Source: Synergistaceae bacterium (GTDB taxonomy: Bacteria > Synergistota > Synergistia > Synergistales > Synergistaceae). Taken from it: 35,805 nucleotides of DNA. The stretch lies in contig JAAYFQ010000146.1 in assembly GCA_012728165.1 (NCBI GenBank), positions 1 through 35,805 on the forward strand, written 5' to 3'. How positions within the stretch are numbered: position 1 is the first letter of the stretch; every line of letters begins with the position of its first letter. Below the pieces are notes generated by a model that ran no database searches, was not told the DNA's origin, and saw only the letters and a program-made list of their open reading frames with translations. This document shows positions 5,043 to 22,370 of the stretch, piece after piece. Both the position numbers and the translations under genes were made by a program.

Positions 5043-5423
5043 TTACTCTTCATCGCACTTTAACAAATTAACTCTTTCCGCGTCAATTGCAGCGACACGG
5101 TCAAGCAAGGCATCCATTTCCCTCGCTTTTGCTTCAGAATCATCGTAAACAAAATTAAGTACAGGAATCTTACGGAGATGCATTTCTTTGCCCAATATTG
5201 AGCGAATTTGACCCGATACCAAATCAAGTGCTTGTTGTAATGTTTCTTGAGCCGATACGTCTATTAAAGTATAAAACACCTTTGCAAAACCCAGGTCTCT
5301 GGATACAAGCACTTTTGTAAGTATCGCATCTTTTACAACATCATTCTTAATTCTACATTGCAACATAACCGAAATCGAACGTAGAAATTCTTTGTTTATT
5401 TTTTTTATACGGAGCGTGACCAT
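5043..5423 (-). CDS. rbfA: 30S ribosome-binding factor A
   Basis: Assists late 16S rRNA processing and 30S maturation by binding the 5' end region of 16S rRNA. The 126 residues form a single KH-like domain. Family landmarks are the start MVTLRIKKINKEFLRSISVML, the segment ILTKVLVSRDLGFAKVFYT (the VxVSxDLxxAxVYxS pattern) and HLRKIPVLNFVYDDS near the end. The ATG at 5423 has GGGAGG at 5438-5433. That ribosome-binding site lies inside the last codons of the decayed ylxP, whose stop TAA (5429-5427) ends 3 nt before this ATG. Confidence 0.94.
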   Translation of the reverse strand: MVTLRIKKINKEFLRSISVMLQCRIKNDVVKDAILTKVLVSRDLGFAKVFYTLIDVSAQETLQQALDLVSGQIRSILGKEMHLRKIPVLNFVYDDSEAKAREMDALLDRVAAIDAERVNLLKCDEE

Positions 5424-5426
5424 AGA

Positions 5427-5646
5427 TTATAACCTCCCGGGTGGAATTGATAATATAAAACTCTCAACTTTGTTCTCGTTGGAGAATTGTTGTTTGAGAA
5501 TTTTATACTTTTTCAAGCTCTGCCTGAGAAGGCTCTGCTGCAACAAAACCTAAATTAGACTGCCAGTATGTAAAGGGTGATAAAACATCTAAACATCTAA
5601 GAAAATAACATTACGCGGTGATGTCGTTGATTTTTTTTAAAGAATC
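5427..5646 (-). pseudogene. ylxP: Decayed ylxP (DUF503), between infB and rbfA
   Basis: The infB-rbfA gap is about 300 nt, the size of ylxP (about 92 codons), which sits exactly here in Bacillus and many relatives. No intact frame exists, but fragments in order look like YlxP: DSLKK (5646-5632); NVIFLDV (5612-5592), compare the NVSVAEV region; YWQSNLGFVAAEPSQAELEK and V (5568-5506), compare the WQ..LGF...AE block; then, one frame over, KILKQQ through KVESFILSIPPGRL and TAA (5504-5427). In-frame stops lie at 5613-5611, 5591-5589 and 5505-5503, the frame changes at least twice, and no start codon with a Shine-Dalgarno was found. The last block keeps the rbfA ribosome-binding site. Family identity rests on position plus short motifs; a sequencing error cannot explain all the lesions. 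Confidence 0.72.
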
Positions 5647-5725
5647 GGTAATAACTAAAACTCTTGATTTCTTGGGTTCTCTTAATATAAATTATAATAT
5701 TAGCACTCTTAGCAATAAAATATAT

Positions 5726-7762
5726 TTAATCGAGAGTTCTTTTTTTCTTCAAAATCTCATAAGCTTCTATAACATCGCCGACACGGAAATCCTGGAATTT
5801 TTCGAAGCTAAGACCACATTCATTCCCAGATTTTATTTCTCTTACATCATCTTTAAAGTGTTTAAGACTAGATAAATCTCCGTTCCAAAAAACTACTCCG
5901 TCGCGGATAAGTCGGACTTTAGCATTCCTGCGAATGAGTCCCTCTGTGACACGGCATCCTGCAATATTACCAATTTTCGGCACTCTAAAAATATCTCTTA
6001 TTTCAGCGCTTCCAAGAGTATGTTCTCTCAGTTCTGGTTCAAGCATTCCTTCCATAGCAGCTTTAACATCATCAAGCATGTCATATATAACTTGATAAAA
6101 CCTTATCTGAACACCATCGCTTTCTGCGATTTTCTTCGCATTACTGTCTGGTCGCACATTAAAGCCGATAATAACAGCATTTGATGCCGAGGCAAGCATA
6201 ACATCTGACTCTGAAATTCGACCTACCCCCTCATGCACAATATTGATTGAGACAGACTCAGTACACATTTTCATAAGCGAAGCATGAAAAGCTTCGATTG
6301 ATCCCTGAACATCTGCTTTCAGAACTAGGTTAAGTTGCGGAACCTCTTTTGTCTGCATCTTTTCATAAAGTTCTTCCAAAGTGAGACGTTTTGTTTTATT
6401 AATATCTATTTCTCTGCGTTCAAAATCATATTGAGACATGATATCACGTGCTTCTCTTTCAGATGAGAGAGTAGAAAATATTTCTCCTGGCATAGGAACA
6501 TTAATAAGTCCTAGTATTTCTACTGGAGTACTTGGGGTAGCTTCTTTAATTAAATTACCCGAATCATCCAACATAGCACGGATTTTCCCCCATGCTGTTT
6601 TAGTATTTATAATGTCCCCTTTGCGCAGAGTCCCTTGCTGAACTATTACAGTGGCGACAGGCCCTTTGCCCTTATCTAAGTTTGCTTCAATAACCGTTCC
6701 AGCTGGCTTTGCATTATAATCAGCCTTTATTTCCTGCATTTCAGCAACAAGCAAAACCATTTCGAGAAGCTTATCTACATTGGCTCCAGTTTTTGCTGAG
6801 ACATCAACCATTATAGTTTCTCCGCCCCACTCTTCAGGTACAAGCCCATAATCTGAAAGCTGTTGACGGACCCTATCGGGCTGTGAGTCTGGTTTATCAA
6901 TTTTGTTAATCGCTACTACTATTGGAACCTCTGCTGCTTTCACATGGTTGATAGCTTCGATAGTTTGTGGCATTAAACCATCATCAGCAGCTACAACAAG
7001 AATGACTATGTCTGTTACTTGCGCCCCTCTAGCTCGCATTAATGTAAAAGCTTCATGACCTGGAGTATCTAAAAACACTATTGCGTTTCCGTTATAACTA
7101 ACTTTTGCAGCTCCTATATGCTGAGTAATGCCACCAGCTTCTTTGTCTGTCACCCTTGTTTCTCTGATGTAATCAAGAAGTGATGTCTTTCCGTGGTCAA
7201 CATGTCCCATAACAGTTACTATGGGAGGTCTTGACTGGGATTTTCCTGTTTTTTTACCAATAGGTTTTTTGGTTTCTTTTGTTTTTTTTAAAGGTTTTGA
7301 AACAGTGACTTTCTTTACATCTTTTACTTTAGGTAAGGTTACCTTCTTTTTCGAATCTGCAATTTCCTCTTTGGTCAAAAACACAAAATGTTTTTCGAAC
7401 CCCTTACCAAGAATTTCAAGAATCTTTTCATCGGCCTCTGCTGTGGCTGGAATCATGAGTCCAGCCGCCATTAAATGTTTAACAGCGTTTCCTGATTTTT
7501 CTCCTGCTGCTGTAGCCACATCAGAAACTGATGCACCTTTGGGCACCTTTATTTTTTCATATGTATTAATAGCTTCAATAACATCAACGTCTTTTACCTG
7601 TTTCTTGTTGTCTAGTTCATTTTCTACAAGTTTTATTGCGTCATTGTCTATTGAACTCATATGTGATTTAACACTCACCCCATGTTTAGTAAGAATGTCT
7701 ATTATCTCCGAATTACTTTTTTCATATGTTTTCGCAAGTTCATAAACTCTCATTTTACTCAT
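5726..7762 (-). CDS. infB: Translation initiation factor IF-2
   Basis: GTPase that places initiator fMet-tRNA on the 30S subunit and promotes 50S joining. With the chosen start it has 678 residues, short for IF-2 because the linker is brief. Order: N-terminal IF2_N helical domain (MRVYELAK onward), a second IF2_N-like segment near 65-110, a lysine-rich linker (about 140-178), the G domain with GHVDHGKTS (G1, 186-194), DTPGHEAF (G3) and NKID (G4), then domains II-IV. The ATG at 7762 is preferred because AGGAG lies 8 nt upstream and it overlaps the ylxQ stop by 8 nt. An upstream ATG at 7780 and a downstream one at 7753 have no suitably spaced site. It ends just before the ylxP remnant. Confidence 0.96.
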
Positions 7763-8090
7763 CGGCGTCACTCCTATCATTTAAGATTATAATCTTTTTA
7801 GCAAAACCGCTCTGCTTTGGCAGCGCAACGATTTGTACTGAGTTAATACCTAAATTTGAACCTAAAGTTTCTCTATCTGTATTTTTTAGTATTATCAATT
7901 TTGCCTCTTTTCGCTCTACTGCTGCACTGACACTCCTTTGTACAGATTTGGAAGAATTATTTACCAAAAGAATTAACAAGTCTTCATTTTTTTTCATTTG
8001 TGCAAAGACATGGTCCTGTCCTATTATCAGTCTACCGGAGCGCCTGGCAAGCCCCAGTGTATTAAGAAGTTGAGTTATATTGTCAAGCAT
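7755..8090 (-). CDS. ylxQ: YlxQ, L7Ae/L30e-family RNA-binding protein
   Basis: A 111-residue alpha/beta protein of the ribosomal L7Ae/L30e/Gadd45 fold, taken to bind kink-turn-like RNA; its exact role in bacteria is unsettled. The N-terminal signature LGLARRSGRLIIGQDHV is typical of YlxQ. The middle has the IL-LVNNSSKSVQRSV strand-helix unit and the C-terminus has the conserved LGINSVQIVAL segment. The ATG at 8090 overlaps the ylxR stop by 8 nt and its own stop overlaps the infB start, so translation of ylxR-ylxQ-infB looks coupled, as in the Bacillus nusA-ylxR-ylxQ-infB order. Confidence 0.88.
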   Translation of the reverse strand: MLDNITQLLNTLGLARRSGRLIIGQDHVFAQMKKNEDLLILLVNNSSKSVQRSVSAAVERKEAKLIILKNTDRETLGSNLGINSVQIVALPKQSGFAKKIIILNDRSDADE

Positions 8091-19969: not shown

Positions 19970-22153
19970 ATGTGGAATAAAAATAATTCTTGCGTTATAT
20001 ACCGGAATTCTTATCAAGACACGTTTAACCTTAACACTTACAAGAAAGAAATTTCTATTTACATAGACAAAATAAATGAAACTGACACGTGGATACGTTC
20101 CGGCAAGTTTATCAATGATCGTTTTAAAGATCAAATATCATCATATCAACTCATTGGTAAGGCTGCGCTAATTGAAGGAAACCCAAATATTGATATATTA
20201 CTTTTAAAAACACAAGTCGGAATCTCTTTGGATAACGCCGAGAGAACAGCTACCGATTTTATCTACGATTACCTTTTTGATTCTTCTACTGATTCTGCAT
20301 TTGTAGCTCTTATTCCTTCATCGGGCGACGGATACATTTCATATTTTTTTGGCTCTCCTTCATTTTTTAAAGTTAAAATACCCTTCGACATACTTAGTTT
20401 CGTTTGTATAGAAACTATCAAAAACTATCTTCATCTTACTCACTCTATAGACATAAGCAGCCTTCCAAATTCAGACTTTCATTCACCAAATACTGACATT
20501 GCAAAAAAAGCAGAGATCGTAGATAGCGCTCTCAAAAATATGAAATTTTGCGATATGGCCTCCAGTTCTGGAGAAATTATTTTTGCAATGTGCTCAACTG
20601 TTGCAGAAATTCGATACTCAATGAACAAGTTCATAGATAATACTAATAATGGCCGGACTAAAGATGATTTTATTAATTATTTCTTGTCTAAATCACTACA
20701 TGCTACAGATTATCATGCGGGAGCACTAGCAACACTTAAAATAGGGCTTTTATTAACTTATCCTAATGTCGAATTTAATATGAATAATTTTATTTGGGGA
20801 AACATCCTAACTGAAAATCTTTTCCCTTCTGTATGTTTTGATGTGATAGTTACCAATCCACCTCACATGAGACAGGAACTTTTCTCTGTAATCAAAGATA
20901 ATCTGAGTTCATATAATTCGTACAACGCAAACTCAGACCTCTATTGCTACTATACAGAAAGAGCCTTTTCACTTCTCAATAATAAAGGCACACTGAGTTT
21001 GATAATGTCTAACAGATGGATGCAAGCAGATTATGGTATTCCTCTTAGAAAGTTTCTTGCTTCGAAGAATATCTCATCTATCGTAGATTATGATCAGATT
21101 AGACCTTTGAAAGAGATCTCAACTCCAATATCTATAATCTTTGCTAATAATAACCTTCCTTCAGAAACGTTGGATATTACAATTGTCAATGACAGTGATT
21201 GTAAGGATATTAAACAATATGTTGAGGATAATTCTCAAACTTTAAATAAGATGTTTTTATCTAACGACAAATGGAATTTTGTTTCAAACAACATAACTTT
21301 GCTAATAAATAAGTTAAACAATTCTAATGTAACGCGATTTTCTACTTATACGAATGAAAGCTTTTACAGAGGAATACTCACTGGACTGAACGAGGCATTT
21401 ATCGTAGATAACAAAACAGCTTCCACTTTAATAGAATCGCACCCTTCTGCTGCAAAGATATTACGTCCAATTCTTTCTGGTAGAGATGTCAAAAGATATA
21501 TGAAGCCGGAGACAAAGAAACAAGTCATATTTATGCCAAGAGGGTATACCGATAAAATGCGAAGAGAAACAGACCCATATGAATGGTTGGTTAATACATA
21601 TCCTTCTGTTGCATCACATCTTGCAAAGTATGAAACGAAGGCTATGAAACGGAGAGATAAGGGTGACTACTGGTGGGAATTACGTTCATGTAAATATTAC
21701 AACTTATTTAATAATACGAAAATTATATGCCCCTCTATCGTAAAAAAACTGTCAGCGACGTTAGATGACAAAAAATGTATTTCTAACGATAAAACTATAA
21801 TCATAGCGTCTGATGACTACTATCTTCTTGGGCTTCTAAATTCAAGCCTTATGGACTTTTATTTCAGAAATACATCAAACAAACTATTGAATAATCATTT
21901 TGAACTTAGGCTTGCTCTGCTTGCTTCATTCCCAATCCGTAATATTAGCAAGACAAATTCTTTTTCTATAAAATCACAAAAAGGCATAGAAACTTATGCA
22001 AAACGTCTATCAAAACTACATTCTATTCCCTATAATGAACGCACTGATAGCATCGCGGATGAAATACAATCAACTGAACGAAGTTTGAACCATATAGTTT
22101 ATAAACTATACAATTTGACGCCTTCAGAAATATTTTTAGTAGAAAATAATTAA
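19970..22153 (+). CDS. TaqI/Eco57I-like adenine-specific DNA methylase (type IIG-like), atypical motifs
   Basis: 727 residues laid out like single-chain type IIG enzymes. The N-terminal part (1-160; NIDILLLKT..., TATDFIYDYLF) resembles the segment preceding the methylase in such proteins, but no PD-(D/E)xK nuclease site is evident. The methylase core (about 190-400) has motif I as CDMASSSG (194-201), where DPACGSG is normal, HATDYHAGA (244-252), motif IV VTNPPH (294-299) instead of NPP followed by Y/F/W, and SNRWMQADYG (347-356). The C-terminal TaqI-like target-recognition domain (about 465-660) is well kept: YRGILTGLNEAFIVD, ILSGRDVKRY and YYNLFNNTKIICP. Activity is therefore doubtful. The ATG has GGAGG 10 nt upstream. 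No restriction partner is adjacent. It is the only complete plus-strand protein gene here, between two tRNA genes, which suggests horizontal gain. Confidence 0.82.
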   Translation: MWNKNNSCVIYRNSYQDTFNLNTYKKEISIYIDKINETDTWIRSGKFINDRFKDQISSYQLIGKAALIEGNPNIDILLLKTQVGISLDNAERTATDFIYDYLFDSSTDSAFVALIPSSGDGYISYFFGSPSFFKVKIPFDILSFVCIETIKNYLHLTHSIDISSLPNSDFHSPNTDIAKKAEIVDSALKNMKFCDMASSSGEIIFAMCSTVAEIRYSMNKFIDNTNNGRTKDDFINYFLSKSLHATDYHAGALATLKIGLLLTYPNVEFNMNNFIWGNILTENLFPSVCFDVIVTNPPHMRQELFSVIKDNLSSYNSYNANSDLYCYYTERAFSLLNNKGTLSLIMSNRWMQADYGIPLRKFLASKNISSIVDYDQIRPLKEISTPISIIFANNNLPSETLDITIVNDSDCKDIKQYVEDNSQTLNKMFLSNDKWNFVSNNITLLINKLNNSNVTRFSTYTNESFYRGILTGLNEAFIVDNKTASTLIESHPSAAKILRPILSGRDVKRYMKPETKKQVIFMPRGYTDKMRRETDPYEWLVNTYPSVASHLAKYETKAMKRRDKGDYWWELRSCKYYNLFNNTKIICPSIVKKLSATLDDKKCISNDKTIIIASDDYYLLGLLNSSLMDFYFRNTSNKLLNNHFELRLALLASFPIRNISKTNSFSIKSQKGIETYAKRLSKLHSIPYNERTDSIADEIQSTERSLNHIVYKLYNLTPSEIFLVENN

Positions 22154-22172
22154 TAATTAATTATTTTCTACT
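22138..22172. repeat. 35-bp perfect palindrome over the methylase stop codon
   Basis: Arms 22138-22154 and 22156-22172 are perfect 17-bp reverse complements with one central base; nearly all A/T. It includes the last codons and the TAA (22151-22153) of the methylase. It could be a weak terminator or 3' stabiliser, though no U-tract follows, or a mark of how the gene was inserted next to tRNA-Pro. Confidence 0.6.
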
Positions 22173-22328: not shown

Positions 22329-22370
22329 AAAACAAACGGCATACTCTGTAAAGAGTATGCCGTTTGTTTT
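22329..22370. terminator. Bidirectional terminator, perfect 19-bp stem, at the end of the V-ATPase operon
   Basis: Arms 22329-22347 and 22352-22370 pair perfectly around GTAA. Both flanks have A/T runs (AAAA and TTTT), so it can stop minus-strand transcription from the ATPase operon (last stop at 22391) and any plus-strand readthrough past the tRNA-Pro terminator. Confidence 0.9.

Follow-up and report, generated by a model that had tools for sequence, protein, structure and literature searches.

A probable ylxP pseudogene between infB and rbfA in a Synergistaceae genome

A gap in a translation operon

ylxP is a small gene of unknown role, and the locus described here raises the question of whether it has decayed between infB and rbfA inside an otherwise intact operon, as the original prediction for this DNA held. 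The window, i.e., the whole stretch of DNA that was analyzed (35,805 nt), is contig C9 of Synergistaceae genome G000, which spans 1.56 Mb in 208 contigs and is 95.7% complete. The order of genes on the minus strand is rimP, nusA, ylxR, an L7Ae-like gene, infB, the gap, rbfA, nrnA, truB, and a ribF-like gene. Every frame from rimP to the ribF-like gene is open; rimP, ylxR, L7Ae, infB, rbfA, nrnA, and truB have Pfam backing, and nusA and ribF were named from sequence. The three segments that concern us are the following:

5043 to 5423, minus strand, rbfA, intact (PF02033)
5424 to 5725, minus strand, infB-rbfA gap with the probable remains of ylxP, 302 nt without a start-to-stop frame
5726 to 7780, minus strand, infB, intact (PF11987, PF00009, and PF04760)

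As predicted, the gap between the intact infB and rbfA genes contains no open frame. With the exception of one at the left edge, every other gap in the window that exceeds 150 nt carries tRNA genes, which makes this gap conspicuous. Its length of 302 nt compares with 301 to 328 nt in seven relatives that have an intact ylxP.

Similarity of the gap to ylxP

None of the fragments of the gap matched DUF503 in Pfam (PF04456). An NCBIfam scan of the fragments was equally empty, which is uninformative, as an intact relative went unmatched too. We therefore turned to a frameshift- and stop-tolerant local alignment against a profile of close relatives, made from the ten closest of the intact YlxP sequences of 31 relatives. 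The DUF503 profile check proposed with the original prediction thus failed with Pfam and succeeded with the Synergistales YlxP profile, to which the gap aligned with 89.8 half-bits over columns 38 to 105 of 105. Dinucleotide shuffles of the gap had a mean of 23.7 and a maximum of 39.9 half-bits, none of 400 reaching the observed score, and the reverse strand of the gap gave 22.1 half-bits. Among 710 sliding segments of the window, taken from both strands, the two that scored highest with the YlxP profile were those over the gap.

The DNA of gap positions 131 to 302 was likewise similar to that of seven intact relatives (z = 8.8, and z = 5.9 with the last 45 nt removed). Identity to relatives in the 3′ half of ylxP was 0.51, 0.65, and 0.38 at codon positions 1, 2, and 3, respectively; the better match at the first two positions is evidence of past selection on the protein. 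At the amino acid level, the readable part is 33 to 50% identical to relatives, versus 50 to 90% among intact YlxP proteins.

Set beside YlxP (DUF503), the gap has the infB-rbfA slot, the strand, the similarity to close relatives over columns 38 to 105, and a 3′ end that overlaps rbfA. It differs in scoring below the Pfam cutoff and in having no start and no open frame of ~105 codons, two stops in the recognizable half, and no first half, all of which mark it as a pseudogene: the frame is disabled, the codon pattern points to past protein selection, and relatives carry an intact orthologue. The predicted decay of ylxP in an intact operon is borne out by homology and synteny and by two further facts (see below), namely, that DUF503 occurs at no other location in the genome and that the sister genus retains an intact ylxP. 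We conclude that the gap is very probably an inactivated ylxP (DUF503) gene. The start and the first half of the gene would have decayed to the point of being unrecognizable, with stop codons and codon losses accumulating in the second half. As it now reads, the gap could not yield a YlxP protein, which suggests that YlxP is dispensable in the G000 lineage.

Two unequal halves

The alignment separates the gap into two parts and places two stops in one of them:

5424 to 5605, minus strand, recognizable 3′ half of ylxP, essentially in one frame (profile columns 38 to 105 of 105; 89.8 half-bits)
5503 to 5505, minus strand, in-frame stop TAA (AELEKV*; alignment)
5464 to 5466, minus strand, in-frame stop TGA (LQREQS*EF; alignment)
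5606 to 5725, minus strand, former 5′ half of ylxP, AT-rich, without a start codon and unrecognizable by profile and DNA comparison

Both the in-frame stops and the missing start that had been claimed were seen. The ylxP match does not end with the gap but takes in the first bases of rbfA, a feature shared with intact relatives. The claim of ordered YlxP-like pieces held in part: the region WQSNLGF...AELEKV is far above chance, and the other pieces named had to be given up. N-terminal pieces, including SLKK, score no better than shuffles, with the 5′ part (the first ~120 to 130 nt) at 18.4 against a shuffle mean of 18.1 and a DNA z of 0.9, i.e., not above random. NVIFLDV comes from a wrong frame (the alignment has LRCLDVLSPF at this point), and KVESFILSIPPGRL, put forward as the tail, is a chance reading of a neighboring frame that the profile alignment rejected. 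The true tail shares its frame with WQSNLGF...AELEKV and reads V*NSQTTILQREQS*EFYIINSTREVIIYG (asterisks mark stops), aligned to LRNLENYLCQREADGEFEIVKFTREVFAYG of genome G010; the stretch after the first stop includes TILQREQS*EFYIINSTREVIIYG.

The GC content is 0.25 in the first 130 nt of the gap and 0.36 in the remainder. A 5′ half without signal next to a clear 3′ half is at odds with uniform neutral decay, and the 5′ half may therefore have been replaced or rearranged, or constraint may have lingered on the 3′ half. The gap was also considered as the site of a repeat or mobile element, an idea that was rejected because the rest of the genome yields just short, chance-like matches to the gap DNA.

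The tail and the start of rbfA

The 3′ end of the gap contains the translation signal of the next gene:

5433 to 5438, minus strand, GGGAGG, ribosome-binding site of rbfA within the former ylxP frame (REV codons), 9 nt before the rbfA ATG

In intact relatives, the ylxP frame extends over the rbfA start, and the rbfA GGAGG falls within its REV codons. All six of the genomes aligned retain this GGAGG, including the two without ylxP, G000 and its genus-mate G001, and the gap of the latter is alignable in the last ~45 nt only. These findings agree with the proposal that the tail was kept for the GGGAGG of rbfA, and retention through selection for rbfA translation is well supported, given that the ribosome-binding site lies inside the former ylxP frame. 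The last ~45 nt of the gap would still be selected as the rbfA translation initiation region. Similarity to ylxP reaches ~120 nt upstream of the rbfA signal.

Upstream of this site lies a potential stem:

5454 to 5508, minus strand, AT-rich hairpin of 15 to 16 bp with both in-frame stops in its arms (−18.1 kcal/mol; rank 117 of 7,150 windows)

The 3′ half might have been kept because it functions as RNA, for instance, as a structured leader regulating rbfA. Taken over its full length, the gap has a more stable fold than its shuffles (z = −2.66), one hairpin of this size lies ~15 nt before GGGAGG, and the 3′ half was retained where the 5′ half was not. The rank of that hairpin within the window, however, is unexceptional, intact relatives have different folds at its site, and genus-mate G001 has no comparable stem. 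Moreover, the retained identity tracks codon positions, as protein coding predicts, and a search of the gap against Rfam gave no hit at the gathering score, either to a leader or to a small RNA. We consider it unlikely that the surviving 3′ half of a dead ylxP was co-opted as a leader element controlling rbfA translation; such a role, if true, would be the reason why this half outlived the other. The hairpin is probably incidental. It was also considered as a terminator or attenuator and was left as such. It could be the footprint of a quasi-palindrome mutation.

Recurrent loss of ylxP among relatives

Pfam detected no DUF503 in the G000 assembly, and a second ylxP elsewhere in the genome, the presence of which had been raised with the original prediction, was not found, with the draft state of the assembly leaving room for an unassembled copy. 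In G001, the sole genus-mate compared, DUF503 is also absent. Sister genus G009, placed next to G000 plus G001 in a tree of infB and rbfA (support, 95/90), has an intact ylxP in the infB-rbfA slot, and ylxP lies between infB and rbfA in all intact loci checked.

In a draft of 208 contigs, the frame could have been broken just by sequencing or assembly errors, with ylxP intact in the organism. The damage is far beyond scattered errors, however, as it comprises two stops, two codon gaps, one or more frame changes, the loss of the start, and ~120 nt of unrecognizable AT-rich sequence, and the genus-mate is likewise without ylxP, so that we regard this explanation as very improbable.

The gap of G001 is ~250 nt long. 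Only its last 45 nt show a likeness to ylxP (equaled by 2 of 300 shuffles), and the DNA upstream of them is random looking; its reading as a ylxP ruin rests on position, length, and this tail. A reading of the G000 gap as intergenic DNA that has no relation to ylxP and resembles YlxP by chance would suit its random-looking 5′ half and most of the G001 gap, but the idea has next to no probability and is already refuted for the 3′ half, where the score is beyond all shuffles and frame, order, strand, and position are all correct.

The loss was predicted to be that of a widely kept gene. This is true of the relatives sampled, 48 of 61 of which have DUF503, but not of the order, where it is present in just 91 of 183 genomes (54 of 113 when restricted to the better genomes). 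Clean losses (G002, G006, G024, G038, G039, G048, and G056) resemble G000 in that infB and rbfA are intact and DUF503 is absent; they differ in that the slot has shrunk to 2 to 85 nt (7 to 18 nt in G002, G006, and G024), whereas the G000 ruin is full length. In two other genomes lacking DUF503, the slot is occupied by a different ORF. At loci L129 and L130 (G047 and G055), the slot is 324 nt long, and its ORF appears cupin-like by eye.

With about half of the order lacking DUF503 and slots cleanly closed, the loss of ylxP is recurrent. The G000 case is a genuine pseudogene but an ordinary gene loss of low novelty. It represents one stage in a series that leads from an intact ylxP through a half-clear ruin (G000) and a remnant at the rbfA site (G001) to a closed slot (other genera), and it illustrates that a gene inside a translation operon can go while its neighbors stay intact. 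The loss argues against an essential role of YlxP in Synergistaceae. The sole functional lead in the literature searched is the Streptomyces DUF503 protein SCO5707, which is ribosome associated under tetracycline (PMC7157823).

Timing of the inactivation

Fourfold-site identity between G000 and G001 in infB, nusA, and uvrA is 0.33 to 0.38, with a random expectation of 0.30 to 0.32. From these values, we estimated that ~27% of sites would be kept under neutral decay since the split of the two genomes. None of 120 simulations of decay to this level reached the observed score; the simulation was a simple one, without indels and with present-day genes as ancestors, and leaves the unequal halves unexplained. 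As the fourfold sites are near saturation and no simulation reached the score, ylxP seems to have been constrained in the G000 lineage after the split. The ruin is probably younger than the split, and G000 and G001 probably lost ylxP separately.

Other features of the window

A perfect inverted repeat of 30 nt around a 3-nt loop (positions 291 to 353; −45.6 kcal/mol) lies directly 3′ of a rubrerythrin-like gene and is probably a terminator. Positions 19970 to 22153 (plus strand) encode a 727-aa Eco57I-type restriction-modification methylase with a TaqI-like specificity domain (PF07669 and PF12950). The gene is on the opposite strand to its neighbors and is flanked by tRNA-Gly and tRNA-Pro genes, the latter being itself flanked by perfect inverted repeats of 17 nt (22138 to 22172) and 19 nt (22329 to 22370).
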